Shown piece after piece: positions 3,522-60,148 of a stretch of 64,000 nucleotides of DNA. Within the stretch, counting starts at the first letter, position 1; every line of letters begins with the position of its first letter. Where the stretch lies: positions 1 to 64,000 of the forward strand of contig NZ_BMZB01000002.1 in NCBI RefSeq assembly GCF_014652575.1. The letters are read 5' to 3'. A program made the translations under genes and the position numbers. Below the pieces are notes generated by a model. That model worked only from the letters and a program-made list of their open reading frames with translations. It had not been told where the DNA came from and ran no database searches. The DNA is from Asticcacaulis endophyticus (GTDB lineage: Bacteria; Pseudomonadota; Alphaproteobacteria; Caulobacterales; Caulobacteraceae).

Positions 3522-3829
3522 GATGCCTTCCTTTCGTGGTGGTGGCCGACCGCGATCAGGTCGCGGAAGGTGATGTCGCCCCAGATCAGGGCCATGTAGA
3601 CGGGGACGGTTTTGCCTTCGGGCCGTGCGCGGACTTCGATGCCTTCGCCGTCGCCAATTTGGACGGTGCGAAATTCGAGCGCATGGCGGGGGCGGTTCAG
3701 CCGGTTGGTGATCAGTTCCATAACGTCCGCCGGTGTCCGGTCGGCCCGCCAGTCGTAGGCTTCGCCGCCGGGGGCCGCGTCCGTGAAGTGGACGGACACC
3801 CCTGCGCCGTCAGAAAGGGATTTCGTCAT
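3518..3829 (-). CDS. Hypothetical phage early protein (103 aa)
   Basis: 103 aa, overlapping the preceding gene by 20 bases and the next by four. It contains a stretch reading LEFRTVQIGDGEGIEVRA that looks like a small beta-rich fold and ends HHHERKAS. No domain is recognised. Its place in the replication-proximal part of the early operon is the only hint about its role. Confidence 0.65.
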   Translation of the reverse strand: MTKSLSDGAGVSVHFTDAAPGGEAYDWRADRTPADVMELITNRLNRPRHALEFRTVQIGDGEGIEVRARPEGKTVPVYMALIWGDITFRDLIAVGHHHERKAS

Positions 3830-4388
3830 CGAGATCGACCTCCGTTTTCAGAGGGACGGGGACGGGCTTTGATTTTTCGATGATGCGGCGAGCGCGGTAG
3901 CAGGTCAGCGGGCCGTAGACATAGAAAGGCTGATCCGGGTTGGTATCGGCCAGACGCTGGGCCTCGGTTTTGGCGCTGTTTATGCTGCCGTGCTGATAGT
4001 TCGGCTGGCGACCATTGGGGTTCCAGACCAGCCAGCCGGGATGGGCGGGGGTGGGGTGGTTGGCGGCGACCGTGGCTTTTTCATCGGTTAACGGATTGAG
4101 GCCCGCGTCATATCGGGCTTTCATGTAGCCGTCAGCGTGGGCGGCATCCATCAGGCGGTCTAAGTTGAGCGCAATGTCCCGCTCAGACAGGTACCCTTCA
4201 GGTGCGTTTCCCAACTCGGAGAGTTTGCCGGGAATTGTCGATCTTAGGAGGTGCCAGTTTTTGGGCGACAATGAGATTTTCACGGGGTGCCTTTGCGGAA
4301 TAGTGAAGTTGTGAAGGCCCAATTCAGCGAGGCGGGCGGAATCGAAGGCGTAGTTTTCGAGGCTAATGGCGTAGTCGCTTGGGGGCAT
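3810..4388 (-). CDS. Hypothetical phage protein ending in an SSB-like acidic tail
   Basis: 192 aa. The N-terminal two thirds match no fold I recognise. The middle is Pro/Asn rich (GWLVWNPNGRQPNYQHGS). The last residues, VDLDDEIPF, reproduce the C-terminal tip of alphaproteobacterial single-strand-binding protein, which docks replication and repair proteins. It is not SSB itself, as no OB-fold pattern is visible. It lies directly downstream of the FtsK-gamma/GapR chimera and the primase-helicase, so a role in recruiting host DNA enzymes is a reasonable inference. See also 11361-11570, which has a similar tail. Confidence 0.7.
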   Translation of the reverse strand: MPPSDYAISLENYAFDSARLAELGLHNFTIPQRHPVKISLSPKNWHLLRSTIPGKLSELGNAPEGYLSERDIALNLDRLMDAAHADGYMKARYDAGLNPLTDEKATVAANHPTPAHPGWLVWNPNGRQPNYQHGSINSAKTEAQRLADTNPDQPFYVYGPLTCYRARRIIEKSKPVPVPLKTEVDLDDEIPF

Positions 4389-4390
4389 GA

Positions 4391-5134
4391 TCAGACCTCC
4401 CCGATGGTGGACATGTAGAGGTCGAACAGGGCCTCTTCCTCTTCGCGCTTGACCTTGTCTTTGCGGCGCGCGCGGATGACCATCATGATGATTTTGACGT
4501 CGAAACCTTCGCCTTTGGCTTCGTTTCGCACCTCTTTGGCATCGCCCTGCAGCATGGCGATGTCCTCGAAAAGCCGTTCGAGACGCTCGATCATGGTACG
4601 CAGACGGCCCTGAGCGGCGGCGTTGATCACATCATTCGGGGTGCCGTCATTGCCCGCGTTAAGGATTTCCTCGGTGGACATGCGGCCTGTGGCGATGCGG
4701 CTGGCGTTTTTCATCGCGCAGTCATGGCACCGCGGCACTTCGCCCAGGCGGGCCGTGGTTTGCCAATGCCAGCCATCGGGCAGGGCGTCAGGCGGGCCAT
4801 CACCGTGCGCATCACAGCCGGAGCAGGTGAAGCGTTTAACCGGGCCAGTATAGACGGGCTTTGGCTTTGGTGCCGGTACCGGTTCGGCGTCTGGTGCCGG
4901 TGTGGCGGTGGCTGGCGAGGGCTCGATGTTTGCATCCGGCGGGCCGACCAAGATGTCGCGTTTGCCGACATGATCGCATGGGCCCACGATGCCGTTTTTC
5001 TCCATCTCTTCCATTATGGCGGCGGCGGAGTTGTAGCCGATCTGCAGCCTGCGCTGAATGTAGGAGGTTGATGCCTTGCGGTCGAAGGTCACATGATAGA
5101 CGGCTTTTTTATAGTGATCTGGATCAATGCCCAT
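4391..5134 (-). CDS. Chimera: FtsK-gamma DNA-binding domain + zinc ribbon + GapR domain
   Basis: 247 aa with three recognisable parts. Residues about 10-63 match the FtsK gamma winged helix, including [16 protein letters not shown], which is close to cellular FtsK and binds polarity sequences on the chromosome. A Pro/Ala linker (66-97) follows. Cys104/Cys107 and Cys136/Cys139 form a zinc ribbon. Residues about 175-246 match GapR (formerly DUF2312), with the coiled-coil pattern [10 protein letters not shown] ... [11 protein letters not shown]; GapR clamps overtwisted DNA in Caulobacter. It sits between the primase-helicase and an SSB-tailed protein, so it probably acts on replicating DNA. I know of no described protein with this domain order. 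Both end domains look recently captured from host-type genes. Confidence 0.85.
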
Positions 5135-5136
5135 GA

Positions 5137-7824
5137 TCAGCTTCCTTTCTTAAGAAGGGGGGTGGTGCGAAAAACCCAGCAATGTTCTGACTTGTCTGTG
5201 AGTGCAGAATTCACGGTGCCGACTTCGACAAACGGGCGGGACTTGCAGGCCTTGAGGTGCTTTTTCACATCGTCGATGGTGAAGGTCATTTGCAGGTTGG
5301 CGCGCTTCACGGCTTGCTCAACCTCAAGCGGTTTGAGGGCGATGCGGTCAGGCTGGCGATGATGGTTTAAGCCTGCGAGTGAGCCGTCAGCGTTGAGCTT
5401 TTTGGCCGTCTCCTGCAGGAAATCGAACCATTCCCAGAACTTTTTGACATAGGGGTGATCATCACCGATGCGGTCGGCGCGGGCGCGGGCCATGTCGGTG
5501 ATGTGCTCATGGCCGACCAGCATCATATTGTCTGGGATATCGATCAGTGCGCACAGAGCGTCGAGGCCTGCATGAAGCTGGGCATGACATTTGCGCACCC
5601 GGTCGTGGCCCACACCTGCCTTGATCAACAGGCTTTCATATTTGGGAATGGCTTCGTTAAAGGCCTTCATGTAGGCGGCTTCGCGCCTGATGATATGAAT
5701 CATTGTGCCGGACAACTTGTCGCGGGGCCATTTGGCGATTTGTTCGGCGGCAGCTTTGGTGCGTGATGACCAGTTATCCTTTGTCCACTTGGTGGACATG
5801 ATGCGGCTTAGGATCGGTTCACCCGATTGAACTTCGGCGTTTTGCTCGATCAGCAAAGCGCCGCGAAAGATCGGCTCATTGGTGTCGTTGCTCTGAGATT
5901 TCCGGCCTGTCGCGCGCCCGATGGTGCCGTCGAACAAGCTTTTGATTTCAGACCAGTCATATTTTTTTATGTGGGGGCCTTCCTCTTCGCGGTCGGATTC
6001 CACGAAAATTACGGGCAGGTTTGCTACCTGCGAGAGGGTGCGCAGATATCCAACCATCGTTGATTTAGATGGGTCGATACCTTCGTAGTTTTCCTGCACC
6101 CGTCCGGCCATCCGCCAGAGGAATTTCACGATTGTGGACTTGCCGGTGTTAGCGGGGCCCCACATTTCAAAATAGCCCATCGCCTGTTGCTCAGAGCGGA
6201 TTTGCTCGGCAAAAAATGACATGACCCAGAACGATAGAGCCGCCAGTCCATTACCGGCCCATGCGGCAAACATGGGTTCTAACCACGACGTGTCGAAGTT
6301 TTCGGCGTCATAGACATGTTTTAGGATGCGGGTGCGTGACCTGAGTTTGACCTGCGTAGAGCCAAGGTCGAAATAGTCTTCGGAATTGACCCGAAGCACC
6401 TTGCCTTTATGGACGGCGATATCACCAAGGATGTAGGCACCATGCTCTTTTGAGTAGCCGGTAAAGTCGATAGTTTCGACCTCTTTGATATCCTTGGTGT
6501 GGTGCGAGATTATCCGGTCAAGCTGGCGGGTCGAGCCTTCCCACAGTGCGCCCGGTGCGGCCCCCATGAGGGTTTTTTTAAATTCAGAACCTGACACGAT
6601 AGCGGCAGGGAGGAACGCGCCCTTATAGGTTTTGTCACGGCCCGGCAGATCGATCGATAAAAAGTAATGGCTTTCAAGTGTCGCCGTGTCGGTTTGCTTA
6701 TAGAGAACGCGGAAGGCACAGTTCGATATACAGTGCAGTTCTAGGCAGGCCTCGGCAGCATAGGACTTTGAGACATCGTCTTTTTTGCTGATCTCTTCGA
6801 CCTTGGCGGGGTCAATACCGCCCCACCAGGTGCGGCTGTCGTAGGTGAAAAAGAAGGATGCCGGCCGTTTTTTTTCGTCCTCTTGTTTCTTCCATAACAG
6901 GAGGGCTTTTTCCGATGCGCTTTTTGCCAGAAGTATCTTACCGTTCCATAGGTAATCCTTGATGTGGCGTTCGCCCAGAAGGTCGCGGCCCAGCAAATCA
7001 TTCCAGTCATGATCGCATTTTTCACCTTCGGCCACGGGCTGGGCGGCTGTCGCTTCCCAGCCTTTTTTACGGGCCATCTCCACATATTTGATTGTGAATT
7101 CAGTGCCTGCCTTGCCGGTGTCAAAGGCGAAGATCAATTCCGGCGGCCTGACATCGAGGTCGGCGCAGGTCTTGCGAAGCTGGTCTAAAAATAATGCCGG
7201 GTAATTGTTGGTGCTCATGGCCGAAACGGCAAACTCACCAACCTGCCGCCAGCTTAGAGCGTCAAATATGCCCTCTGTGATCCATATCCGATTTGACCTT
7301 GCTAACTGTTCATAGCCTTGATCCGGGCATAGCCAGACGTGGCCGGAATAGCTGGTGCCCTTTTTGAAGTATGCCTTCCGGTCAAAGCGGGACGGTTGGT
7401 CGAGCAGCCGTTCCCAATAGGCCCCATTGGGCAACGGGAAGCGGATCGTGGCCGAGGTGATATCCTTATTGTAGTCCTTATAGAGTTCCTGCGTGTAGCA
7501 GCCCCGTAGCCCCATGAGATTGAGGCGGCGGGAATGGACAAGGTAGGCATCGGCAGCGGCGTTAGGGCTTTCGGGTGTCGGTTTATACCGGTTCGACCAG
7601 TGGTCGAAAATTTCAGGGTAAAGTTCCTTGACGGAATATTCGCGACCGCACTTGTTCGAGCGTCCACATTTGACCTTCCACGGATTTTCCTTGTGGGTGT
7701 AAAACTCACGCTTTTCGCAGGCCGGGCACCGGCCTTCTTGCAACCACTGGCCCTTATCCTTAAACCCGTAATCGGCAATAAGGCGGGGCAGTAACTCATC
7801 ATAGATGTCCTGTCTCATCGACAT
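5137..7824 (-). CDS. Phage DNA primase-helicase (zinc ribbon, Toprim, P-loop helicase)
   Basis: 895 aa, the main replication protein. An N-terminal zinc ribbon uses Cys33, Cys36, Cys53 and Cys59. A Toprim domain follows with the catalytic Glu in ITEGIFDAL (about residue 184) and an Asp in FAFDTGKAG (about 235). A C-terminal helicase domain has the Walker A motif GPANTGKST (556-564). This arrangement makes primers and unwinds DNA in one polypeptide. P2 uses gpA for rolling-circle replication; no gpA-type replication-initiator nuclease was recognised here, so the replication module differs from P2. It is preceded in the operon by the Ogr gene and followed by the FtsK-gamma/GapR chimera. Confidence 0.88.
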
Positions 7825-7911: not shown

Positions 7912-8274
7912 TTAGCCGGTCGAGTCTGGGCGGGTGCGCGTCTTAAGCCGGAGCATCGGCGCGGGTTCCTTTACGGTGCCCAAAGCTGAGGGCGAGATGG
8001 TTTCAATAAATTCAAGGTGTGCTTTCCAGCTATGGCCACATTCCAGATTTTCACACCGGTAATAGAGCCGTCGCAAGGTGACGCTGATCTCTTCGGAACT
8101 CCGGCAAAGACCACGCTCTCCACAAACTGCGCATGAAAAGACAGGCGCTTGATTGCACTTTCGTTTCGGCTTGCGGACGGGCTCACAAACCAATCCCGCC
8201 GCCGCATGTTCATTGTTCATACGATTATGACCCAGCCCAATGGTTACTAATTGAGGGTGTCCCACCACCATCAT
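7912..8274 (-). CDS. ogr: Ogr/Delta-type zinc-finger activator of late genes
   Basis: 120 aa from the ATG at 8274, which follows GAGAGGGG at good spacing; a later ATG at 8220 is possible. Cys48, Cys51, Cys74 and Cys79 give CX2C-X22-CX4C, the exact spacing of P2 Ogr and P4 Delta, with YYRCENLECG as the family's second cysteine pair. Ogr-family proteins bind dyad elements near -55 of late promoters and contact RNA polymerase alpha. Three palindromes at 22193, 26274 and 35698 fit as its targets. Unlike P2, where ogr lies beside gene D, this gene is in the early operon, so late-gene activation would follow early transcription directly. The N-terminal 40 residues are longer than in P2. Confidence 0.85.
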   Translation of the reverse strand: MMVVGHPQLVTIGLGHNRMNNEHAAAGLVCEPVRKPKRKCNQAPVFSCAVCGERGLCRSSEEISVTLRRLYYRCENLECGHSWKAHLEFIETISPSALGTVKEPAPMLRLKTRTRPDSTG

Positions 8275-8275
8275 A

Positions 8276-8755
8276 TTATTGCCCCTCTCGTTGGGGGATA
8301 TCCTGTTCCTGACCCACATCGACGCCGATCCAGACGGTCGGCGGCGCAGGGTGCTGATAGGCGTTCAAGGCGACCGTATCTGCGTGGGCTATAGTCTCGA
8401 AATTGAGCACAAGCTTAGAGTCCGGTTTATTATATGTGCGGCGCAGGTCGGCCTCGATAGTATCGAGGGTGTCCGGCGTGGTGCGGTGGCGGTCGGCTTC
8501 GGCGCGTTGCAGGGCGTTGAGCCTTGCAATGGTTTCCTTGGCCTCAACCAACTGGCGCTCAATGGATTCGACCTGATCGCAGGCGGTGCCGTGAAGTGCG
8601 CGCGTCTTGGCGTGTTCTCTGCGCTCCGTTTCGATCTCATGATCCAGTCCGCTGAGATAACTACGCAAGGCAACTAGATCGGTCTTTGTCCCTTGCACCC
8701 GGATTGCGCTACGACCGGGGATAGGAATGTCGAGGTAATAATCCCGCGATGACAT
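8276..8755 (-). CDS. Hypothetical coiled-coil early protein (159 aa)
   Basis: The start MSSRDYYLDI at 8755 overlaps the stop of the Cro-like gene (TGATG). An N-terminal beta-like stretch (YYLDIPIPGRSAIRV) is followed by a long charged coiled coil (about residues 40-95, EIETERREHAKTR). No enzymatic motif is visible. It is the second gene after the leftward early promoter, which suggests a regulatory or host-takeover role; this is only positional. Confidence 0.65.
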   Translation of the reverse strand: MSSRDYYLDIPIPGRSAIRVQGTKTDLVALRSYLSGLDHEIETERREHAKTRALHGTACDQVESIERQLVEAKETIARLNALQRAEADRHRTTPDTLDTIEADLRRTYNKPDSKLVLNFETIAHADTVALNAYQHPAPPTVWIGVDVGQEQDIPQREGQ

Positions 8756-11610: not shown

Positions 11611-11862
11611 TTAGGGCATACCGGCCACGAAACCCTCTTCGAGTTTGTCGTGCATGACGCATATCCTGACCGGGCCGTCACACTTACGGTCGAAGCACCG
11701 GAGATCACGCTGCACCTGGTCGATATAGAACCCGCCTAATCGGCCAAGCTTGACCAGATCGCCCGCCCATTCGTAACGGTGCTTGCCGCACATGCGGCAT
11801 GAGACTTCAAATTCTGTGTCCGGATCGAGGTCGCGGAGCATGGTTTCTGTGCGCCAAGACAT
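11611..11862 (-). CDS. Hypothetical zinc-finger protein (83 aa)
   Basis: CRMC near residue 22 and CFDRKC near residue 56 give a CX2C ... CX4C site. The C-terminus is short and acidic (HDKLEEGFVAGMP). Its start overlaps the polymerase stop by one base. It is probably co-translated with the Y-family polymerase and may assist it, but no family is recognised. Confidence 0.65.
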   Translation of the reverse strand: MSWRTETMLRDLDPDTEFEVSCRMCGKHRYEWAGDLVKLGRLGGFYIDQVQRDLRCFDRKCDGPVRICVMHDKLEEGFVAGMP

Positions 11863-13118
11863 CAGTTAAAATCCTCCCTTCTGGGAATACGCGTGTAGGA
11901 AATTTTAGCCCCGGCATGATCGCCGGGCGGCGGCACCCATAGGCCGGGTGTGACTACGGTCGCGCCATATTTACGGGTCAGGTGATCGAGCGCATCCGAC
12001 AGGCCCTCTAACTCACGGCGCTTGGCGTCATCGTCTTCGATCATATCCAGTTGCCGGACATCGATCGGTTTCAATTCGCTCAGGTTCACATCGACGCGGA
12101 AGACCGAAAGTCGCGGATCGACCTCTTGTCGCGCAACGCGCCACAGGTCTTCGACGCGTTCAAGAATGCCGACATAATCCGCATAACCCGCCATGTTGAT
12201 CGACTTCGACCAGCCGCAGTCGCCATATGAGGATATGCAGTACATGCCCAAGGTCAGGCGGTTGGCGCGCCAGTTATCCCGGCGCATCCGCCGAATGGCC
12301 TTGATCAGCAACATGCGCGAAATCGGTCTGGCCTGTTCAAGGGTGCGATGGCTGGGTGGCAATATCCGGCTATGGCCGTACATGCCGCGCTTGGTCGGTT
12401 CGGCCTGAATGTCGTAGCCGTGCAGGGCATGCCACATTCTAATGCCACTGACCCCGCCCCATATGCCCCGTAGCTGATTGGGCGTCAGGTTCATCAGGGC
12501 TTCCATATCCCAGATGCGGGCAGCAAATAGCCGCTTTTTGATACCGGCGGCGATGCCCGGCACATCATCCAGCCGCTTATTGATCAGGATGTTGAACGTA
12601 TCTTCAGGCGCCCACACCAGATTGCCGGTCGGCTTTGAGTCCTTGCAGGCCATCTTGGCCAGCAAACGGTTTGCACCATAGCCGATTGAGCATTCAATCC
12701 ACGGCCCGACCACCTTATAGAGCCTGCGTTTGATTTCCTTGCCCACGGCCAAGGGGTTAAATTGCTGGGAGGGATCGAGCCTGCAGGTCATTTCATCAAT
12801 CGATTTTACCGCATCGACCGGCACAACCATGTTGATCTCAGATATCATTTCATTGTGGGCGCGCCGGTAAAGGTCTGGGTCTTGGGGCCATAAGACTATG
12901 TCGGGGCATTTCTTATAGACCTCATTAATTGGCATGACGTTTTTAACGCCCATCGCCTTGGCTTCCCGCGAACAGGCTATGACGCACGACGATCCCGTTT
13001 TCATAGGGATGACGCCGACCGGCTTGCCTCTTAGATGTGGGTGGCGGAACTGCTCACACGACGCAAAGAAACCGTCGAAATCGAGATAAAGCCGTTCTGG
13101 CCGGATAGGTTTGCGCAT
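11862..13118 (-). CDS. Y-family DNA polymerase (DinB/UmuC type)
   Basis: 418 aa from MRKPIRPERL at 13118. The catalytic motif YLDFDGFFASCEQ (Asp13, Asp15) and the second metal-site motif SIDEM (Asp108, Glu109) are intact. ECSIGYGANRLLAKMA matches the finger/thumb region, and the C-terminal little-finger half is present. No beta-clamp-binding motif stands out at the C-terminus. It copies damaged DNA. A perfect SOS box lies 37 bases upstream (13155-13169), so expression should follow host LexA. The neighbour SRAP gene handles abasic sites, giving a compact damage-tolerance cassette on the prophage. Confidence 0.9.
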   Translation of the reverse strand: MRKPIRPERLYLDFDGFFASCEQFRHPHLRGKPVGVIPMKTGSSCVIACSREAKAMGVKNVMPINEVYKKCPDIVLWPQDPDLYRRAHNEMISEINMVVPVDAVKSIDEMTCRLDPSQQFNPLAVGKEIKRRLYKVVGPWIECSIGYGANRLLAKMACKDSKPTGNLVWAPEDTFNILINKRLDDVPGIAAGIKKRLFAARIWDMEALMNLTPNQLRGIWGGVSGIRMWHALHGYDIQAEPTKRGMYGHSRILPPSHRTLEQARPISRMLLIKAIRRMRRDNWRANRLTLGMYCISSYGDCGWSKSINMAGYADYVGILERVEDLWRVARQEVDPRLSVFRVDVNLSELKPIDVRQLDMIEDDDAKRRELEGLSDALDHLTRKYGATVVTPGLWVPPPGDHAGAKISYTRIPRREDFN

Positions 13119-13154
13119 GAGAAACACCAAAGGGCAGATGACCAATTGCCCGTT

Positions 13155-13169
13155 GTTCTATCTTTGTTC
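13155..13169. promoter_or_regulatory. Alphaproteobacterial SOS box (LexA site) GTTC-N7-GTTC
   Basis: GTTCTATCTTTGTTC is an exact match to the LexA consensus known in Caulobacter and Rhizobiales (direct repeat GTTC with seven bases between). It sits in the 88-base gap between the polymerase start (13118) and the SRAP stop (13207). Confidence 0.8.
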
Positions 13170-13206
13170 TCAGTTTTAAAAAGAGTCAAGCCGTGCGCCG
13201 GTTACC

Positions 13207-13842
13207 TCAAAGCGGGGAGGGGTTAAACCTAAAAGTCCCTGATGGCGCGGACAAATTTACACTTTCGACCGGCTTCAAATCCAGCCAATCGCGCCATTCA
13301 TCTGGCAATAAAGTGATCGGTTCGCGCGTGTGATATGGGGATAAGTCGTCACCAGCGGCGCGGGTGAGCATGGTAAAGCTGATGATCGGTTCGGCCTGAT
13401 CGGTCGGTTTGGCGATATCCCAGATACCGGCAAAGGCCATCATGTGGTTGTCGGCGCGGTGGATTTCCTGACGCTGTTTCTTTTTCGGATCAGTCGGATG
13501 CGGCCCCCACCATTCCCAGAAATAATCAACGGGGATGAGGCAGTGACGTTTCGCAAACGCCCCTCTGAATGACGCGGCGGTCGAGGCCGTTTCGACCTTG
13601 GCGTTAAAGGTGGATAGCTTGAAATCGGCCAGAGGTTTATCCCACCAGTTGGGCACAAGGCTCCACCGGCCATCGACAATCTTGGTCATGCCATCCTTGC
13701 CGACCGCGATAAACGGGTAATGGTTTGTCGGGCGAATTTCGACCTTATCCAGCAGGGCAGGATTCGGGCCGTCCGCAATGGCCAATATGTCCTGCAGTTC
13801 CTGCCAGCTAATAGGGTTCTTTGGGGCAAAGCGTCCGCACAT
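13207..13842 (-). CDS. yedK: SRAP (YedK/HMCES-type) abasic-site protein
   Basis: 211 aa from MCGRF at 13842; Cys2, exposed after Met removal, is the residue that forms the thiazolidine link to abasic sites in single-stranded DNA. Further family features are PNWW, STFNAKVET, FAKRHCLIPVDYFWEWW and PYHTREPITLL (the conserved His). Longer upstream in-frame starts would bury Cys2 and are rejected. It lies upstream of the Y-family polymerase on the same strand. SRAP genes are common in phages and near SOS polymerases. Confidence 0.9.
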   Translation of the reverse strand: MCGRFAPKNPISWQELQDILAIADGPNPALLDKVEIRPTNHYPFIAVGKDGMTKIVDGRWSLVPNWWDKPLADFKLSTFNAKVETASTAASFRGAFAKRHCLIPVDYFWEWWGPHPTDPKKKQRQEIHRADNHMMAFAGIWDIAKPTDQAEPIISFTMLTRAAGDDLSPYHTREPITLLPDEWRDWLDLKPVESVNLSAPSGTFRFNPSPL

Positions 13843-13846
13843 AGTC

Positions 13847-14248
13847 TTAAATTCGCACAGTGATGTCGGTGCATATGTTGCTGGTGAAGCCCTTCGACAA
13901 ATGCGGCGGGTTGATGGATTCGAGTTCTGCAACAATTTCGTCGAAGTCTTCGTCAGGCACAACTTCCTCGCCACGGCAAAATGCGTATTCGCCTTTTACC
14001 CCGCGCCGGATCATGTCCAGCTTCTTAAGACGTTCAAATGTCCAAGGATGGAGGCCGATGCGAAGCGCCTGAAATACATAGCGCCAATGACCTGGTACCG
14101 TCGTGCCGGGTTGTTCCCACTTTTCGATGCCTTGGCGCGATAGGCCTGTCGCCTTCGCCAGATCGGCCTGTGTCCAGCCCATGTATTTGCGAAAGGCTTT
14201 GACCTCGTGCAGGTCGAGGGGTGGCGGGTTGGTGAAATTTAATGACAT
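13847..14248 (-). CDS. XRE-family regulator (133 aa)
   Basis: An HTH_XRE around residues 15-45 (FRKYMGWTQADLAKATGLSR) is followed by an unusual C-terminal part without clear family. It is followed after four bases by the SRAP gene, so it heads the repair operon. Its upstream region (14311-14422) carries two nested dyads that are plausible autoregulatory operators. Confidence 0.78.
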   Translation of the reverse strand: MSLNFTNPPPLDLHEVKAFRKYMGWTQADLAKATGLSRQGIEKWEQPGTTVPGHWRYVFQALRIGLHPWTFERLKKLDMIRRGVKGEYAFCRGEEVVPDEDFDEIVAELESINPPHLSKGFTSNICTDITVRI

Positions 14249-40715: not shown

Positions 40716-42593
40716 TTAAGCGCAGAGGCGCAGATGGTAGGTCGCGGGCGCTTGGCCGGATATGTGTGTGGAACGCCCAAATCTGGCCCCCGCAACCATC
40801 TCAAATTCGCTAGGATTTGAGAGAGCTAAAGTAGAACCAGAAGCCGCCCTATCGGGGCGGCTTTTCTTTTTGTCCAATTTATGATTTGAGCAGTCTTTCG
40901 TAGCCAACTCTGAGTCACCGATATTTGTACCAAGCGATTTGACATCAAGCGGTAGCGAAGAAGCTGCCTGGCGTGGGTCGTGCTTTTGGGATTGCTTGCT
41001 TGGCTTTCGGGTGGAAATATCCAGGATTCCAGCGAGTTCACCTACCACAAGGACTTCGAGTTTTCCGTTCTCAGGTATCAGCGTAAGGTGGCAGACGATG
41101 CCGCGTATTGTTTCGGCGGCGCTTAAACGCTTTGCCTCTGTCTCGTCAGCAAGCGCATTGTAAAGGTCGGAAATTTGAGTGCGGTAGAAGTTTGCCATTT
41201 CCGGATGTAGGAGAGGAGGGGGCTCTACAAACTCGGCAATGAAGCGGTCGAGTTCCAGTTTTCGCCTTTCCATTTTGGAATTCTTGTCTCTGACAGTTTC
41301 TTTCGAGATCGTGTCACTCAGATAGAGATCGATAAGCCTTTCCGCCTCCCTCTTAATTTTGGCGACTTCCGCCCGTGCGGCTTCAATGGCTGCTCGGGCC
41401 TCCATACGACTTAAATTGACTTCCTTAGTGTACTCGACACAAAACTCTTGAAAAAGTGACGGCTCCATCAGACGATGTCGCAAGGCATTGAGAACCCGTT
41501 CTTCCAGTTCGGCTCTGCGTATAGTCAAGTAGTTTGAGCAGGTGCCTTTATTCCGGGCCGTTGCGCAGCCTACCGATGTTGCTGAAACAACTATGAAGCC
41601 GCCACCGCATGTAGCGCATTTGGTCATCCCAGAGAATAGGTACTTTGGGCGCCGGCGCTCGCGGAAATGATTATCGGGTATTTGGTCATCGGCCGCATTA
41701 ACTGGATTATCGTTAGACTTGCCCTTAATACGATCTTGTCGCAGCTTAACCGCTTGCCAAAGTTCGTCCTCAATGATCCGCAATTCTGGAACATCGTGGA
41801 TTACCCACTCAGACGGTGGGTTTGGCCGGGCTTGCCGACGACCGGTACCTGGTTCTTTGACAAAGCGTTGGCGGTTCCAAATCAAACGGCCGATATACAT
41901 CTCATTGTTCAGGATGCCGTTTCCGCGTTTGCGATTGCCGTTTATTGTGCTGAAGCCCCAGTCTCCGCCGCCAGGCGCACGAATTCCACTCCTGTTCATT
42001 TCAGCCGCAATAACCTTTGGCGACTTGCCATTGGAAAAGTCACGATAAATACGGCGTACCACATCCGCCTCGACAGCATTTATGGTGCGATCACCTCGTA
42101 TCAGTTCACCATTGCCGTCGAGTTTGCGAACCACATCATAACCGTATGAATTGCCGCCCCCCGATTTGCCTAGCTCCACTCGACCCTGCATGCCTCGGTG
42201 TGTCTTCTCGGCTAAATCTTTTAGAAACAGCGCGTTCATCGTGCCCTTAAGGCCGATGTGGAGGTGTGAGACTTCGCCCTCCGAAAGGGTGATAATCTTC
42301 ACACCGGCATACGACATGCGTTTAAAAACACCGGCGATATCTTCCTGGTCGCGCGATAACCTATCCATGGCCTCAGAAAGTACGATCTGAAAGCGACCAG
42401 CCATCGCGTCAGTTATCAGAGCCTGAATTCCTGGACGTAGGAGTGAGGCGCCTGATACGGCGTGATCGGAATATTCTTCGACGATCTGCCATCCCTGCTT
42501 TTCGGCATGGGCCCGGCATATACGGAATTGGTCTGATATGGATGCGTCACGTTGATTGTCTGACGAGTACCGAGCATAGAGCGCGACCTTCAT
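40716..42593 (-). CDS. Large serine recombinase, integrase of the second element
   Basis: 625 aa. The N-terminal catalytic domain has ALYARYSSDNQ (Ser10), EAMDRLSRDQED and the recombinase domain. A zinc ribbon follows (TKCATCGGGF ... CATARNKGTCSN), then a coiled coil (residues about 380-450). It is clearly related to the recombinase at 1-1541. The C-terminus runs antisense over the terminator and the tRNA fragment (40798-40778), so the last 20 or so residues are coded by prophage DNA. The original protein probably ended elsewhere. It is likely the integrase of the conjugative element to the right. Confidence 0.92.
   Translation of the reverse strand: MKVALYARYSSDNQRDASISDQFRICRAHAEKQGWQIVEEYSDHAVSGASLLRPGIQALITDAMAGRFQIVLSEAMDRLSRDQEDIAGVFKRMSYAGVKIITLSEGEVSHLHIGLKGTMNALFLKDLAEKTHRGMQGRVELGKSGGGNSYGYDVVRKLDGNGELIRGDRTINAVEADVVRRIYRDFSNGKSPKVIAAEMNRSGIRAPGGGDWGFSTINGNRKRGNGILNNEMYIGRLIWNRQRFVKEPGTGRRQARPNPPSEWVIHDVPELRIIEDELWQAVKLRQDRIKGKSNDNPVNAADDQIPDNHFRERRRPKYLFSGMTKCATCGGGFIVVSATSVGCATARNKGTCSNYLTIRRAELEERVLNALRHRLMEPSLFQEFCVEYTKEVNLSRMEARAAIEAARAEVAKIKREAERLIDLYLSDTISKETVRDKNSKMERRKLELDRFIAEFVEPPPLLHPEMANFYRTQISDLYNALADETEAKRLSAAETIRGIVCHLTLIPENGKLEVLVVGELAGILDISTRKPSKQSQKHDPRQAASSLPLDVKSLGTNIGDSELATKDCSNHKLDKKKSRPDRAASGSTLALSNPSEFEMVAGARFGRSTHISGQAPATYHLRLCA
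40778..40798 (+). other. Probable attR core: 3' end of an initiator tRNA-Met gene
   Basis: The 21 bases ending CCCCCGCAACCA equal the T-arm end, acceptor strand and CCA of alphaproteobacterial tRNA-fMet as I recall it. To the left the T-stem and anticodon arm are missing, so only the 3' fragment is here. To the right follow an 8-bp hairpin (TCTCAAAT/ATTTGAGA) and a strong terminator reading the same way. Confidence 0.65.
40841..40872 (+). terminator. Intrinsic terminator, probably of the tRNA
   Basis: AAGCCGCCC (40841-40849), loop TATC plus G, GGGCGGCTT (40855-40863), then TTTCTTTTT. It reads rightward, antisense to the second recombinase, and lies 43 bases after the CCA of the tRNA fragment. 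Confidence 0.75.
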
Positions 42594-46517: not shown

Positions 46518-47681
46518 ATGATCAAGTTTTGGGCATCCATAGCCTTGTGTTGCGTCGTGGTGTCCGGCTGCGCATCCGCGCCGCGGGCGGTTTTTGACGA
46601 GCGCCAGGCTGCAGCGGCGCAACCTTATGGATTTGACCATATTCGTGTCTCCCCACGAGATCCGGGACTGGCCCAGCGTCTGGAAGCGGATGTCCGTGAG
46701 GGACTGCGAGCCAACCCAAACTCCGATATATCCATCCTGTCGTTGTCAGGTGGCGGTGCTGACGGCGCCTTTGGCGCTGGCGTGCTCAATGGATGGACGA
46801 AGCGCGGAGACAGACCCGCGTTTAGTGTGGTCACCGGCGTATCGACGGGCGCACTGATTGCGCCTTTCGCCTATCTCGGCCCCCGATATGATGAAAAGCT
46901 TAAAGCGGCCTATTTGAGCGCTGACTCATCAAAAATTCTAAAGCGCAAAGGCTTGAGTGTTTTCGTAAGCCCCGGGGTTTACAGTTCTGAAGGGCTAAAG
47001 GCCCTGGTCGCCCAATTTGTCGATGTCGCCATGATTGAAGACCTCGCCATAGAAAACAATAAGGGGCGCAGACTTCAGGTCGCCACGACCAATCTTGATG
47101 CCCAGGCGGGCGTAATCTGGGATATTGGTGCGATCGCAACCCAAGGCGTCGCGCAAGGTGCGCAAGGCAAGGTTCGCGCGCGCGATCTGGTGCGTGAAAT
47201 TCTCGTGGCCTCCGCTAGCATACCGGGGGCCTTCGCTCCGACGTTTATTCCCGTCAGTTACACAGATCGAAAGATCCGGCATGATTTGTTGGAGATGCAT
47301 GTCGATGGCAGTGTCACCATGCCGTTATTTATATTGCCAGAATCTATGCTGACCTGGCAGGTGCCGCCTGACGTCGCCCTGCATGGCAAACTCTACGTCC
47401 TGATCAATGGTAACATCAATCCGCGTTTTGCGTTCACGCGCTACGGTGCATTCGACGTCATTGGTAAGAGCATTGACACCCTGACCCGCGCGCAGGCCCG
47501 TGCCACGCTGCTGGGGATTGAGGAATTTTCAAAACGAAATGGCTTTGTGCTCTCGGTCGCCAGCTTGCCTGACGATTTCGAAGGCGGGGGCCTAATGGCG
47601 TTTGATCCTGTCAGCATGGGTCGCGTTTACAACGAAGGCTATGCCCTCGGTCTTAGCGGACAGGCCTTCGGTCGCAAGTAA
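46518..47681 (+). CDS. Patatin-like phospholipase, lipoprotein
   Basis: 387 aa. It has a short signal peptide with lipobox VSGC (acylated Cys18). The oxyanion loop GGGADG (78-83), nucleophile elbow GVSTG (Ser109) and catalytic Asp263 (HVDGS) are all present, so it should be an active lipid acyl hydrolase, anchored in a membrane on the outer side. It is followed by a MipA/OmpV gene and controlled by the divergent TetR. It could remodel outer-membrane lipids or attack competitor lipids. Confidence 0.88.
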   Translation: MIKFWASIALCCVVVSGCASAPRAVFDERQAAAAQPYGFDHIRVSPRDPGLAQRLEADVREGLRANPNSDISILSLSGGGADGAFGAGVLNGWTKRGDRPAFSVVTGVSTGALIAPFAYLGPRYDEKLKAAYLSADSSKILKRKGLSVFVSPGVYSSEGLKALVAQFVDVAMIEDLAIENNKGRRLQVATTNLDAQAGVIWDIGAIATQGVAQGAQGKVRARDLVREILVASASIPGAFAPTFIPVSYTDRKIRHDLLEMHVDGSVTMPLFILPESMLTWQVPPDVALHGKLYVLINGNINPRFAFTRYGAFDVIGKSIDTLTRAQARATLLGIEEFSKRNGFVLSVASLPDDFEGGGLMAFDPVSMGRVYNEGYALGLSGQAFGRK

Positions 47682-54007: not shown

Positions 54008-54688
54008 TTACGAGAGTTCCTTGGACCAGTTAAAGGCGTTTATGTAGATGCCGAGCGGATTCCTGCGCAGGCGTTCGGGATCGCGTGGGGGCTCAACGAC
54101 AAGCGTAAGAATGGCAGTCCAGCGTTCTGTGCTGGCGATCTGCCCGCTGGTGTACGTACGTTCGGTCCAGCTCACACGAAAGCTATCGGGCGAAGCACGG
54201 ATCACGCTGGAGACCTCGACGGCGATCTGTTGCTGGCCGACTTTGGCAAACGGGTCGTTGGTTTGCGCATAGCCGTTCAGTGCCGATGCACCTTTGTCCG
54301 TCATGAACTCGTAGGCCTTCAGCCAGTTTTGGCGGACGATGATCGGGTCGGACGAGACGGCGCGCACATTGCCAATAAAGGCCGCAAGGTGATAAGCAAT
54401 CTGGCTATCAGAGGGTTTGTAGTCCGCCGTGGCGGGGGCGACGGCTTGAGTTTGGCCGAGGGTATCGACCTCAACGACCCAGGGCGTGATCGTTCCGCGC
54501 GCCCCCTGCCAGACCAGAGCCGTCGCCAGACCGCCGACGAGGGCCAGGCAACCAAACGCCATCAGGCGCCAGTTTTTGGCTTGAACGCGGGCTGAACCGA
54601 TGCGGTCATCCCAGACTTGAGCGGCTCGCTGGTAAGGCGTTTCCGGCTGTGGTGTTTCGCTATAGCGGGTAGAGGTTCGCTTAAACAT
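54008..54688 (-). CDS. trbF: TrbF (VirB8-like) inner-membrane protein
   Basis: 226 aa. One membrane helix (LMAFGCLALVGGLATALVW) followed by the periplasmic VirB8-type domain (PWVVEVDTLGQTQAVAPA, then RQNWLKAYEFMTDKGA). It starts six bases after trbL and abuts trbG. Confidence 0.93.
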   Translation of the reverse strand: MFKRTSTRYSETPQPETPYQRAAQVWDDRIGSARVQAKNWRLMAFGCLALVGGLATALVWQGARGTITPWVVEVDTLGQTQAVAPATADYKPSDSQIAYHLAAFIGNVRAVSSDPIIVRQNWLKAYEFMTDKGASALNGYAQTNDPFAKVGQQQIAVEVSSVIRASPDSFRVSWTERTYTSGQIASTERWTAILTLVVEPPRDPERLRRNPLGIYINAFNWSKELS

Positions 54689-54693
54689 GGTGG

Positions 54694-56046
54694 TTATTGA
54701 CCTTCATTGAGATTAGGGGAATGGCCGGCGCCGCCGCCATCGCCGGACCGCACAGCGTGGGTGAGCGTATTCATGCCGTGCTGGAACGATTGTGAGCGTC
54801 TCATGCGCTTGGCCCATTCGGGCGTGGACGTGGCGTTTGTTGAACTGGCTATTGGCGAAGCTGCGGGCTCGCCTACCGTGCCCCGCGTGGATGCGCCGCC
54901 GCTTGCGGTGAATGCTGACCGTGCACCGCTTTTGAAACCATCGGACATGGCGCCGCCGGCGTTTGAAAGCGCGCGCTGAAGGGGAGATATGGCGGTTTTG
55001 GCCGTAGTCTTGGCTACACTGGCCATGCCACCGGCAACGGCAGCGCCGCCTTCCTTACCCAGAGCGCCAAGATTGTATGCGGTCGAGGCGCCGCCAGCCA
55101 GGGAGGCACTGCCTCTGGCAGCGGCCACCCCGCCCGAAGCGATCGCGGCAAGGCCGCGCCCGGCCATGCCAAGGCCGGCACCAGCGGCCATCATGGCGCC
55201 GCCTGCCGCTAAGCCCGTCCCGATGGCGGCGCCAGCACCCAGTTGAGGTCCGCCGGAGACCAGCCCGTTAGCAATGCCGGGGCCAAAAATACCAAGTCCT
55301 AACAGGGTGAGCGCGGCGAGCACGATCGCCATAGCGTCTTCAACGGTTGGCGCGGCCGTGCCGTAATCCTGAACGAAGGTATCAAACAGGGTTGAGCCAA
55401 TGCCGACCACGACGGCTAGCACCAGAACTTTGATGCCGGACGATACGACGTTGCCCAAGACCTTTTCAGCCATAAAGGCGGATTTACCGAAGAGACCAAA
55501 GGGGATCAGGACGAAGCCGGCCAAGGTCGTCAGCTTGAACTCGATAAGCGTAACGAACATCTGTATGGCGAGAATGAAGAAGGCGAGGACGACAATGGCC
55601 CAGGCCAGCATCAGACAAATAATCTGAAGGAAGTTCTCAAAGAAGCTTATAGCGCCCATCAGATCCGAGGCGGCTTGTAACAAGGGCGCGCCCGCGTCCA
55701 GGCCCGTTTGCGCGAGCTTGCCCGGTCGTAAAAGGTCGGCGACGGTAAAACCTGTGCCCGAGGCCTTCAGCCCCAAACCGGCAAACGAATTAAAGATGAT
55801 CGCCGACAGGGCGTTCCAGTTGCCTATGAGGTAGGCAAAGGCCCCGATGAAAAGCGTCTTTTTGACCAGGCGCGCGATAATGTCATCATCGCCGCCCCAA
55901 CTCCAAAACAAGGCTGCGAGCGTTACATCGATGACGATTAATGTCGTTGCAATAAAGGCGACTTCGCCGTGCAGAAGGCCGAAGCCGCTGTCGATGTATC
56001 GCGTGAAGACTTCGAGGAAGTGATCGATGACGCCGGTGTTGGTCAT
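54694..56046 (-). CDS. trbL: TrbL (VirB6-like) polytopic membrane protein
   Basis: 450 aa from MTNTGVIDHF at 56046. Six or more hydrophobic segments (residues about 25-275) include the TrbL/VirB6 core. A long Ala/Gly-rich and Ser/Thr-rich cytoplasmic tail (about 280-450) ends SPNLNEGQ. It makes the inner-membrane channel. It begins five bases after TrbK. Confidence 0.92.
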   Translation of the reverse strand: MTNTGVIDHFLEVFTRYIDSGFGLLHGEVAFIATTLIVIDVTLAALFWSWGGDDDIIARLVKKTLFIGAFAYLIGNWNALSAIIFNSFAGLGLKASGTGFTVADLLRPGKLAQTGLDAGAPLLQAASDLMGAISFFENFLQIICLMLAWAIVVLAFFILAIQMFVTLIEFKLTTLAGFVLIPFGLFGKSAFMAEKVLGNVVSSGIKVLVLAVVVGIGSTLFDTFVQDYGTAAPTVEDAMAIVLAALTLLGLGIFGPGIANGLVSGGPQLGAGAAIGTGLAAGGAMMAAGAGLGMAGRGLAAIASGGVAAARGSASLAGGASTAYNLGALGKEGGAAVAGGMASVAKTTAKTAISPLQRALSNAGGAMSDGFKSGARSAFTASGGASTRGTVGEPAASPIASSTNATSTPEWAKRMRRSQSFQHGMNTLTHAVRSGDGGGAGHSPNLNEGQ

Positions 56047-56051
56047 GGCGG

Positions 56052-56333
56052 TTATTGACTCGTGTTGGCGGTCATGGCGGTCTGGCCGAGGAACTGATCG
56101 CGGCCTTCCTGCCACAGCCTGCGGCAGGCATCGTTCGGGGTGGCCATCAAACGGCAGCGTTTCAGCTCCGCACGTAAAGGTTCAGGATCTGCGGTGGGCG
56201 CTTCGGGAATTTCCAACGACAAGCTTGGCGTGTTGTCGTGTGAGCTGCCGAGTTGGAACGCGGCGAGAGCTACAATCAGAATGCCGAGAGCAACGGCAGA
56301 TAGACGGATCAAAGATTCCGATATCATCATCAT
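56052..56333 (-). CDS. trbK: Putative entry-exclusion protein TrbK-alt
   Basis: 93 aa. An N-terminal membrane helix (RLSAVALGILIVALAAF) is followed by a short periplasmic part with a Cys pair (KRCRLMATPNDACRRLW). It lies between trbJ and trbL where alternate TrbK proteins are found. It probably blocks redundant transfer into cells that already hold the element. Confidence 0.8.
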   Translation of the reverse strand: MMMISESLIRLSAVALGILIVALAAFQLGSSHDNTPSLSLEIPEAPTADPEPLRAELKRCRLMATPNDACRRLWQEGRDQFLGQTAMTANTSQ

Positions 56334-56338
56334 GCCCC

Positions 56339-57088
56339 CTAATTGCCGTAAAACATTTGGGCGGCCCCTGGCTGGTAGCCGGAAGTGCTGTTCAGGAAGC
56401 GCTTGCGTTGCTCGCGTCCTTGCTCGGCGGCGGTCGCCGCTTCGGCCGCCTTCAGGGCGTCCGCTCGCCCGTTGGCGGCGAGGATGGTGGTGAGATCAGC
56501 CAGTTGCTGGGTTTGGAGGGCCAATATCTGGTTGCCGGCTTGGGTTGCAGCCAGCGCGCCCGTTGCGGATTGACTGGCAGACACAAGTGCTGACATTTGT
56601 ATTTGAGTGTCATCGATATTGCCGACAACGGTCGCCTGGGTGCGCAGCGCGTCCTGCAGACCACCAACTGTATTTGCCCAGCGCGTCTTGGCATCTGTGA
56701 TCATCGCGCGGTTGGAGGCCGTCAAAGAGACGGAGCCGTATATGGATTGAAATGCTTCATCGATGCGCGCGACGTTGTAGGCGATATTTTGCGCCTGGGC
56801 GATGAGTTGCCGCGTCCGGTTGATGGTTGTCTGCAGTTGCGACAGCGCAGAATAGGGCAGGTTCGCCAGATTCCGGGCCTGATTAACCAGTGACGTGGCC
56901 TGGTTCTGTATCATCGTAATCTGGTTGTTGATCTGTTGCAGGGCACGCACGGCGGACAGGACGTTCTGTACGTAGTTAGCCGGATCATAGACCGCCAATT
57001 GCGCATCAGCGGCACCGGGCAGAGCTACGGACCCGGCAAGACATAGTGCGCTGGCTAGGAGGGCGCGGCGCTTCGTATCTATCGTCAT
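56339..57088 (-). CDS. trbJ: TrbJ (VirB5-like) pilus-tip protein
   Basis: 249 aa from MTIDTKRRAL at 57088, whose ATG overlaps the TrbE stop. A signal peptide (LLASALCLAGSVALPGAADA) is followed by the long helical TrbJ core (YVQNVLSAVRALQQINNQIT). It helps pilus assembly and adhesion. Confidence 0.92.
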   Translation of the reverse strand: MTIDTKRRALLASALCLAGSVALPGAADAQLAVYDPANYVQNVLSAVRALQQINNQITMIQNQATSLVNQARNLANLPYSALSQLQTTINRTRQLIAQAQNIAYNVARIDEAFQSIYGSVSLTASNRAMITDAKTRWANTVGGLQDALRTQATVVGNIDDTQIQMSALVSASQSATGALAATQAGNQILALQTQQLADLTTILAANGRADALKAAEAATAAEQGREQRKRFLNSTSGYQPGAAQMFYGN

Positions 57089-59520
57089 GGCATACGCTCC
57101 ATATTGTTCAGTTGGGGGATGAGGTCGGCAGCCCAATCGAGGTCACGATGTCTCAGCCAGGCCGCCAAAAATTCGCCTGGGCCGTGCTCGGCGATGATCC
57201 GCGACGCATGTACCTGGTCGGTCTTTGATGAGGCGGCGCATAGGGCGATGGCGATGGCATTCAGCCCAAGCTCAAAAAGTCGATGTCCCTGGCGGGATTG
57301 AAGGTAGTAATCCTGCTTGGGACGGGCGTGAGCGATCAGTTGAATCTGCCGATTGTTCAGACCGAACCGTTGGTAAATGGCGGAAATTTGTGGCTCAAGC
57401 GCATTTGGATTAGGCAGAAACAGGCGCGTTGGGCAGCTTTCCATCAAAATGGGGGCTATAGCGCTGCCTTCGATGTCAGCCAGGCTTTGCGTGGCGAAGA
57501 CCACGGAAGCATTACGCTTGCGCAAGGTCTTCAGCCATTCCTTTAGTTGATCAGCGAAGGCTGGATCATCGAGCGCCAGCCAACCCTCATCAATAATAAT
57601 GAGGGTTGGGCTGCCATCGAGGTGATCACCAATACGATGAAACAGATAAGACAAGACGGCCGGTGCGGCGGGGGTGCCTAAAAGCCCTTCTGTCTCAAAC
57701 ACCTGGACCCGGTTACGTCCCAGACTTTCACTGTCCGCATCGAGCAGACGGCCGTGTGGACCTTCCAGGCAATAGGGCGCAAGTGCCTGCTTAAGTGCTT
57801 GGGACTGGAGTAATACCGACAGGCCAGTAAGGCTGCGTTCGGCCACCGGGGCTGTAGCTAATGAATTCAGGGCTGACCACAGCAGCGCCTTAACATCAGG
57901 TGTGACCTCAATGCCATCGCGCGTAAGGATACCGGCGATCCAGTCTGTGGCCCAGCTTCGTTCCTCGACATCGTCGATGCGGGCCAACGGTTGCAAACGC
58001 ACGGACGCCCCGGTGTCGGAATTTCCATTGCCCAGATCGTACCAGTCGCCGCCCATGCCGTGACAGGCCACACGCATCGAGGCGCCAAAATCGAAAGCAA
58101 ACACTTGGGCAGAGCTGTAGCGACGAAATTGCAGGGCCATCACCGCCAGTAAGACGGACTTTCCAGATCCGGTCGGGCCGATGATGAGGCTGTGGCCGAC
58201 GTCGCCGACGTGAAGGGATAACCGGAACGGGGTCGAGCCCTCGGCCTTGCCGAATAGCAGAGGGGGGCCTGCTAAATGCTCGTCCCGTTCCGGACCCGCC
58301 CAGACCGCCGATACCGGCATCATATGGGCGAGGTTCAATGTCGATAAAGGCGGCTGACGCACATTGGCGTAGACGTGTCCGGGTAGGCTCCCCAGCCAGG
58401 CATCGACGGCGTTAAGGCTCTCCACCGTGCAGGTGAAGTTGCGACTCTGGATGACCTTCTCCGCCGCGCGTAGTTTTTCATCCGCGATCCGGCGATCCCG
58501 GTCCCACACTATAAGCGTGGCCGAGACATACGCCATGCCGGCTAGGTCGGCGCCTAGTTCCTGAAGCGCCAGATCAGCGTCCTGAGCCTTATTGGCGGCA
58601 TCGTTATCGACGAGGCTTGAGGCCTCGTTGGTCATGACTTCCTTGAGTATGGCACCGATCGATTTGCGCTTGGCAAACCATTGGCGCCGCACCTTGCCCA
58701 AAAGCCGTGCCGCATCGACCTTGTCCATCAATATGGCGCGGGTGGCCCACCGGTACGGGAAGGCCAAGCGGTTTAAGTCATCGAGTATGCCAGGGGCGGT
58801 GGTGGTTGGAAAACCAGTTATGGTCAGGACGCGGACATAGGCTTCGCCCAGCATCGGGGCTAGCCCGCCCGTCAGGGGGCGGTCGGCGAGCAGGACATCC
58901 AGATGCATTGGGGTTTCTGGCACGCGGACACTGTGCCGGTTGGTTGACACTGTCGAATGCAGGTATGACAGCGTTTCCGCGTCATCGAGCCAGCGGCATT
59001 CGGGCATAAACCCGGTGAACTGGTTCAAAAACCGCTCGCATTGGTCGCGGAACGCTTCAAGATGGTCGTGACCGTGAGCCGCCGCGCCAGTCCCACCCTC
59101 AAAAAGCCAGCCTTCACCCTTCGCCGTCAGATCCTCAGGGGGCAGGAAGAGGAAAGTCAGGAAATACGCGGATTCAAAATGGGCGTCGGCATCTTCAAAA
59201 TCGGCCTTACGTTCGGCATCTACCAAAGCCGATGCCGCATCAGGGAAGCGTGAATCTGGGTAAACGCTGGCGGCTGAACGTTGGGCTTCGACGAAGATGG
59301 CCCAGCGCGATCCCAATCGCCGGAAGACGCTATTGAGCCGCTCGGCTACGGCGGCCAGTTCCGACGGGACCGAACTGTCAAGATCTGGACCGCGAAACCT
59401 TGCCGATCTCTGGAGCGAGCCATCCTTGTTTAGGACGATGCCATCGGCGACCAGAGCTGCCCAGGGCAGAAAATCTGGAAGATATGAAAAGTGGCGGCGA
59501 TATTCGGCCAGGTTCATCAT
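57085..59520 (-). CDS. trbE: TrbE (VirB4-like) ATPase
   Basis: 811 aa from MMNLAEYRRH at 59520 (AAGGA upstream). The VirB4 CagE-type N-domain and a C-terminal P-loop ATPase with Walker A GPTGSGKSVLL and Walker B LIIIDEGWLALDD are intact. It powers pilus assembly and transfer. Confidence 0.95.
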   Translation of the reverse strand: MMNLAEYRRHFSYLPDFLPWAALVADGIVLNKDGSLQRSARFRGPDLDSSVPSELAAVAERLNSVFRRLGSRWAIFVEAQRSAASVYPDSRFPDAASALVDAERKADFEDADAHFESAYFLTFLFLPPEDLTAKGEGWLFEGGTGAAAHGHDHLEAFRDQCERFLNQFTGFMPECRWLDDAETLSYLHSTVSTNRHSVRVPETPMHLDVLLADRPLTGGLAPMLGEAYVRVLTITGFPTTTAPGILDDLNRLAFPYRWATRAILMDKVDAARLLGKVRRQWFAKRKSIGAILKEVMTNEASSLVDNDAANKAQDADLALQELGADLAGMAYVSATLIVWDRDRRIADEKLRAAEKVIQSRNFTCTVESLNAVDAWLGSLPGHVYANVRQPPLSTLNLAHMMPVSAVWAGPERDEHLAGPPLLFGKAEGSTPFRLSLHVGDVGHSLIIGPTGSGKSVLLAVMALQFRRYSSAQVFAFDFGASMRVACHGMGGDWYDLGNGNSDTGASVRLQPLARIDDVEERSWATDWIAGILTRDGIEVTPDVKALLWSALNSLATAPVAERSLTGLSVLLQSQALKQALAPYCLEGPHGRLLDADSESLGRNRVQVFETEGLLGTPAAPAVLSYLFHRIGDHLDGSPTLIIIDEGWLALDDPAFADQLKEWLKTLRKRNASVVFATQSLADIEGSAIAPILMESCPTRLFLPNPNALEPQISAIYQRFGLNNRQIQLIAHARPKQDYYLQSRQGHRLFELGLNAIAIALCAASSKTDQVHASRIIAEHGPGEFLAAWLRHRDLDWAADLIPQLNNMERMP

Positions 59521-59530
59521 GGTCTTATCC

Positions 59531-60147: not shown

Positions 60148-60148
60148 A

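Follow-up and report, generated by a model that had tools for sequence, protein, structure and literature searches.

Both GapR and the γ domain of FtsK have been studied in depth for their part in replicating and segregating bacterial chromosomes. No description of a γ–GapR fusion was found among the open-licence papers listed, and the closest counterparts in sequence collections are phage proteins clustered as PHROG 4212 ("unknown function"), a full-length model of the layout in which γ precedes GapR. The protein ANH49054.1 of Ruegeria phage 45A6 (L001, 7575–8630) has this γ–GapR layout and matched the PHROG 4212 profile over 1–351 of 353. It is annotated as "cell division protein FtsK", and no motor domain was found in it with Pfam; this annotation and the family label have been misleading. 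In Rhodobacter phage RcFrancesLouise, gp62 (QXN71259.1; L049, 6698–8023), annotated as 'hypothetical protein', contains two tandem γ domains, GapR and a C-terminal extension, and in ten more Rhodobacter phage records the match to the 45A6 protein covered a similar range.

The γ domain is also a fusion module in the small terminase of the Samaravirus Bacillus phages Sam46 and Sam112, in which the partner named in the available excerpt of that paper is Terminase_2, not GapR (PMC8190038). GapR-type proteins carried by phages include ORF28 of Erythrobacter phage R34L1 (PMC12185513) and DsbA of T4, a reported GapR homologue (PMC7824862); the excerpts of these two papers mention neither a γ nor a ribbon part.

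We analyzed a window of 64,000 nucleotides, the whole stretch of Asticcacaulis endophyticus DNA presented above, in which a sequence-only reading had placed a phage-encoded chimera of FtsK γ, a four-cysteine ribbon and GapR at 4391–5134. The position was correct, the gene reading on the minus strand. The features of the locus are as follows.

4391–5134, minus strand: fusion gene, 247 aa, FtsK γ, linker, four-cysteine ribbon and GapR (open reading frame, Pfam and PDB sequence matches)
4946–5116, minus strand: FtsK γ winged-helix domain, residues 7–63 (Pfam, AlphaFold model, Foldseek)
4718–4825, minus strand: four-cysteine ribbon, CxxC...CxxC, Cys104 to Cys139 (cysteine pairs between γ and GapR)
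4400–4615, minus strand: GapR (DUF2312) DNA-binding domain, residues 174–245 (Pfam)
5137–7824, minus strand: primase, directly upstream of the fusion gene, with Toprim and a DUF927-like part below the cut-off (PHROG 1139, Pfam)
3810–4388, minus strand: next gene of the apparent operon, function not assigned (open reading frame list)
7912–8319, minus strand: Ogr/Delta-like zinc-finger late activator (Pfam, E = 3.9e-13)
40716–42593, minus strand: large serine recombinase, probable integrase, at the right prophage end (Pfam Resolvase, Recombinase and Zn_ribbon_recom)

The open reading frame starts with ATG and encodes 247 aa with zero internal stops; the plus strand is another frame and contains a stop. 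Both claimed domains exceeded the curated Pfam cut-offs, FtsK_gamma (PF09397) at residues 7–63 (E = 9.9e-22, 76.9 bits against a cut-off of 30.6) and GapR (PF10073) at residues 174–245 (E = 1.9e-22, 79.1 bits against 22.6), the latter over the whole profile (1–72 of 72); the absence of a profile match, which the sequence-only reading had named as fatal to it, was not what we found. Sequence matches in the PDB were to the GapR entry 6ozx (E = 1.9e-22) and the FtsK γ entry 2j5p (E = 1e-11). Between the two domains lie the two CxxC pairs that had been proposed as a ribbon (Cys104-x2-Cys107 and Cys136-x2-Cys139); all four cysteines were kept in 5 of 5 aligned members of the genus, and the ribbon stretch had no Pfam match.

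The structure prediction that had been suggested as a check gave a confident γ fold (pLDDT 93–97 over residues 1–60) and a confident long GapR helix, with low confidence over the linker and ribbon, so that the ribbon fold is poorly predicted. Foldseek aligned the modelled γ with KOPS-bound 2ve9_A (TM 0.92, target-normalised; rmsd 0.8). With E up to 0.001 it returned matches to γ and none to GapR, and the GapR assignment is accordingly made from sequence. Pfam matches within the 247 aa were to γ and GapR only, with no RecA-type motor domain found, which would place the protein outside the FtsK/SpoIIIE DNA translocases. A frameshift or assembly join, the other outcome that had been named as fatal, is excluded, since the reading frame runs without a break and three other genomes of the genus show an identical layout. 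The gene is real, intact and recurrent.

The window protein matched PHROG 4212 in two stretches (E = 2.9e-36) and not over its full length, as it begins at γ without the N-terminal 130 residues of the model. Like the 45A6 and RcFrancesLouise proteins, it has γ ahead of GapR in one phage protein; however, the 45A6 protein is longer by about 130 residues at its N-terminus and its linker contains no cysteines, whereas the window protein starts at γ and has the ribbon, and the RcFrancesLouise protein has two γ domains and the C-terminal extension. The window gene adjoins a primase, whereas no primase is annotated beside the gene in the stretches examined from these two phages, where many neighbours are 'hypothetical'. 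The chimera is not one of a kind; it is a ribbon-bearing new variant of a phage family already clustered but without an assigned function. Because other phages carry similar fusions, the combination of γ and GapR probably helps phages to manage DNA.

The phage setting of the gene, as had been claimed, was evident from its surroundings, which include D protein, tape measure, tail sheath, baseplate, endolysin, capsid and terminase genes as well as the recombinase, with a contractile tail and with HTH regulators in addition to the Ogr/Delta-type activator; from this gene content we call the prophage P2-like. The window begins at the contig start (position 1), and the left prophage end may be cut. 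The fusion gene starts 2 nt past the primase open reading frame, in agreement with the proposed location, and 2 nt also separate its end from the following open reading frame. The upstream gene had been described as a primase-helicase: the primase part held (PHROG 1139, E = 1.9e-255; Toprim by Pfam), whereas the helicase half is only suggested by a DUF927 match just short of the Pfam cut-off (20.0 against 22.6 bits). Relatives of the 3810–4388 gene were present in two (L191 and L192) of the four other loci of the genus. The host genome (G000) also has an ordinary FtsK gene and two further GapR genes (G000:C6:20438-20653 and G000:C1:363470-363685).

Elsewhere in the prophage, genes for a Y-family DNA polymerase and an SRAP peptidase are adjacent (11862–13974). 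Beyond the recombinase lie conjugation genes of the trb type (54694–61129; TrbL, TrbE-like and a T2SSE-type ATPase), with a patatin-like phospholipase gene (46518–47681) in between; a 100-nt tRNA-Thr (agt) called by ARAGORN at 54412–54511, on the strand opposite to the adjoining conjugation genes, is probably false.

The search for other proteins combining PF09397 and GapR, also suggested by the sequence-only reading, found fusions in the genus, the family and other phages. The family search covered 348 genomes, and 25 genomes of the window's genus (its own included) were among the matches listed. The γ–ribbon–GapR layout was found in three further genomes of the genus, G850 (L191), G825 (L193) and G843 (L194), at 50–57% identity over about 250 residues. 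In a fourth, G819 (L192), an open reading frame directly after the primase (8281–8721) encodes ribbon and GapR without γ. Its similarity to the window protein starts at the ribbon, with 86% identity over residues 99–168 and 72% over residues 99–245, which gives the protein a mosaic look; since G819 has ribbon and GapR without γ right after the primase, these two parts may form the core. A primase 50–54% identical to that of the window lies near the gene in all four loci, and in L193 and L194 a single open reading frame, methyltransferase-like in L193, separates the two. In another genus of the family, G329 (L233) encodes a γ–GapR protein, with the ribbon not matched, and a phage integrase gene lies some 2 kb away. 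When 398 genomes of the order were searched, G329 appeared solely as a GapR match, and fusion counts are to be read as 'at least'; among the matches listed from these 398 genomes, full-length coverage was seen for the window alone. Pfam applied to ten relatives detected both domains over the cut-offs in nine and GapR only in G819.

In IMG/VR, both domains occurred in one open reading frame at 18 of 81 loci, 80 of the 81 being those retrieved with the 45A6 protein as query, and L088 was a 100% match to 45A6. With the window protein as query, one IMG/VR locus was matched, at γ only, and 11 loci in genome contigs at the γ end only, and the Rhodobacter phage protein had no match in IMG/VR. The ribbon alone had no match among 50,697 phage records, and plasmid records were matched in 216 of 72,556 cases, none covering more than 80% of the query. 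In 385 genomes, the PHROG 4212 profile matched FtsK on the one hand and GapR on the other, so that this search cannot count fusions. We also considered long open frames around GapR matches as fusions; γ was present in two (L184 and L188) of the eight regions checked and absent from six. In G672 (L188, 833–1906), the order is reversed, GapR preceding a weak γ that is nevertheless over the cut-off (36.2 bits). This natural series of variants, with γ, without γ, with two γ domains and reversed, lets one ask what directs GapR to DNA.

We then compared the histories of the two modules in trees, the main ones omitting six near-identical IMG/VR fusions and L088. The γ domains of the window, L191, L193 and L194 were nested among FtsK proteins from the genus itself (16 rows, 85/99), and later trees gave a 17-row set (97/99) of 12 genus FtsK proteins and five fusions, L233 included; L233, with its long branch, was placed outside the genus set in one tree and inside it in another. 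The window γ is up to 75% identical to the FtsK γ domains of the genus, and most other fused γ domains came together in a set of nine apart from these (99/92). For GapR, the tree grouped the window, L191 and L192 with one GapR of the genus (4 rows, 99/87), L193 and L194 with another (100/95) and the G329 fusion with the GapRs of its family (96/93), whereas the IMG/VR and Ruegeria fusions fell in one clade with f27 GapRs (100/99). The C. crescentus GapR fell among the GapRs of the window's family.

In AU tests, one clade of 14 fused γ rows was not rejected (P = 0.374; four same-genus and ten other rows, L233 being outside the group, over 66 columns after 21 long-branched or distant rows, five of them fused γ domains, had been dropped), so that independent capture of γ is not proven. 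By contrast, one clade of 15 fused GapR rows was rejected (P = 4.7e-48; L049, L111, L188 and L102 excluded, with free-standing GapRs nested among the fused ones). The four same-genus fusions as one clade gave P = 0.436 for γ and P = 1.2e-6 for GapR, the latter changing to 0.098 when the γ-less L192 was added and to 2.8e-5 when L233 was added instead. Because the fused GapRs were rejected as one clade while the fused γ domains were not, either fusion was repeated or modules were swapped, and within the window's family the trees fit one γ capture with changing GapR partners. A single origin of the fusion was set aside on the GapR result, although module swapping would give the same result. Phage proteins joining the two, with GapR halves from more than one clade, suggest an advantage in combining a sequence reader with a supercoil clamp.

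The γ domain of the fusion resembles that of the host FtsK in fold, in R1289 (E. coli numbering) and in overall sequence (71% identity), and differs from the host protein in having no motor domain beside it and in a changed R1297. It keeps R1289, N1296, E1303 and E1306. At R1297 the window protein has Ser, and each of the five fusions found in its family, this one included, has Ser or Thr; among 62 non-fused γ rows the position is Arg in 60 and Lys in 2, and three of the 20 fused γ rows, all outside the window's family, have Arg as well. In E. coli FtsK, a change of R1297 left XerD activation at the wild-type level, and a change of R1289, the XerD contact, affected recombination most (PMC5052618). 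Since XerD activation does not depend on it there, R1297 is probably conserved for DNA reading, and the phage γ would have changed its DNA target. KOPS reading by the fusion γ is weakened on this reasoning, and the earlier proposal that γ still reads chromosome polarity is unsupported, since the fusion γ has lost a residue that is basic (Arg or Lys) in all 62 non-fused rows. KOPS-blindness through loss of R1300, which is Ala in the window, was also considered and rejected, since Ser occupies this position in the genus's own FtsK, Arg is present in only 31 of the 62 non-fused rows and the genome keeps a polarised GGGNAGGG.

The GapR half contains the full-length domain of host GapR (PF10073; C. 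crescentus CC_3319), at 67% identity to one of the host's GapRs, and differs in its C-terminal position within a larger protein and in K34I and K59M. Four of the seven DNA-contact positions (K34, K42, K49, K56, K59, R63 and K66) are identical and K66 is Arg; K42, K49, K56, R63 and R65 are unchanged. At positions 34 and 59, L191 has Val and Met, L192 has Ala at 34, and L193 and L194 are basic at both, L194 having Gln at 56. According to the excerpt of the C. crescentus study, Ala at K34 or K59 lowers DNA binding (PMC8510090). The DNA clamp that had been proposed is present as a domain but partly altered in its DNA contacts, and it may be weak because K34I and K59M affect two of the seven positions whose Ala mutants bind less.

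We tentatively favour the reading, which we hold at somewhat less than an even chance, that the protein is a phage DNA-topology factor of a replication operon, assembled from host parts and equipped with a retuned winged helix. The GapR half would oligomerise around duplex DNA as a clamp and relieve positive supercoils in front of the phage replication fork, and, because it groups with GapR of the same genus, a mixed oligomer with host GapR may form. The winged helix of γ and the ribbon would steer the protein to particular DNA, most likely a phage sequence over KOPS because the recognition helix of γ changed after capture. We infer the transcription as an operon, the oligomer, the topology role, the target DNA and the time of action. 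In its favour are the two domain matches, the 2-nt spacing to the primase and the primase relatives at the four other genus loci, the closeness of both halves to proteins of the genus, the changed R1297 next to mostly retained GapR contacts, the γ-less form in G819, the DNA-processing genes near other fusions listed below and the reported homology of T4 DsbA to GapR. Against it stand the possibly weak clamp, the fusions elsewhere that keep Arg at R1297 and a search for iteron-like repeats near the gene, which gave two-copy families only. Adjacency to a primase does not prove a role in replication, and the polarised KOPS of the prophage, described below, make a KOPS-related target possible.

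An alternative, which we regard as unlikely, is that γ still recognises octamers of the KOPS type, in the DNA of phage or host, and loads the GapR clamp at such sites. It gains from the retained N1296, E1303 and E1306, against which stands the changed R1297, and from the distribution of KOPS. In the prophage (1300–42700), GGGNAGGG occurs 12 times forward and once in reverse, compared with 3.1 and 1.5 expected, and 0 of 100 order-3 simulations reached 12 forward copies; within prophage genes the counts were 7 and 1, whereas codon shuffling gave 2.4 and 1.2 (P = 0.01). Most copies of the motif are on the strand opposite to the fusion gene, both in the prophage (12:1) and in the 17 kb surrounding the gene at each of the four same-genus loci (7:3, 4:0, 10:1 and 4:1), giving 37 opposite and 6 on the same strand over the five stretches. 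However, such polarity is expected of DNA residing in a chromosome with KOPS-guided FtsK (507 forward and 194 reverse in the whole host genome), some contigs without a fusion also seem polarised, and these KOPS therefore do not decide the target of γ.

Similarly, IMG/VR loci with a fusion were richer in KOPS (2.46 times expectation, n = 16, including the close relatives L091–L094 and L097) than those without (1.37 times, n = 56; permutation P = 0.003), but the scrambled word GGGGNAGG showed a larger excess (2.73 compared with 1.33, P < 0.001). Of five scrambled words, GGGGNAGG was enriched beyond KOPS, two gave P = 0.07 and two nothing clear (P = 0.15 and 0.50). We accordingly rejected this enrichment as support for KOPS reading, as it is non-specific.

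It is rather improbable, in our estimate, that the protein is a motor-free Xer activator in which γ, independently of KOPS, touches XerD, so that the GapR-held protein turns on XerCD recombination of phage or host DNA without the FtsK pump. This would explain why Arg is retained at R1289 in the window, in all five fusions of the family and altogether in 17 of the 20 fused γ rows, although contact of the same surface with DNA may also account for this. A γ domain fused to XerC or XerD works motor-free (PMC5052618), and the E. coli R1300A and E1303A variants, as given in an excerpt of the source, still support XerCD recombination although their recognition of KOPS is impaired (PMC2680272). Against this reading, the prophage already encodes a serine recombinase, and a crude E. 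coli-type dif pattern, possibly different from the dif of the host, had no match in the window.

We give a similarly low probability to a transcription regulator, a promoter-directed DNA clamp on phage genes. A winged helix, a ribbon and GapR make a plausible regulator layout, and it has been proposed, in the part of the source available, that DsbA of T4, the reported GapR homologue, may bring RNA polymerase to late promoters (PMC7824862), but the prophage already contains an Ogr/Delta-type activator and HTH regulators. Interference with the host, in which the protein would slow host chromosome work by drawing host GapR into poisoned mixed oligomers or by competing with FtsK for XerD, is quite improbable, since despite the closeness of both domains to the host's own the gene stays by a primase in five loci of the genus and is carried by resident prophages, in which constant poisoning would be costly unless repressed.

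Extending the favoured reading of a retuned DNA-topology factor beyond this locus, it is possible, though doubtful, that alphaproteobacterial phages repeatedly welded host FtsK γ to a host GapR (once in reverse, in L188), exchanged the GapR partner and readjusted the winged helix, which would yield motor-free topology factors aimed at chosen DNA and still contacting XerD.

We also scanned ten neighbouring genes of other fusions. Three had no match of the methyltransferase, resolvase or ATPase type, one was Holliday-junction resolvase-like, one was AAA ATPase-like and five were DNA methyltransferase-like. DNA methyltransferase-like genes at or near fusions include those at 9015–9767 in L193, 6893–9103 in L103, 7677–9449 in L090 and 7041–7610 in L108.
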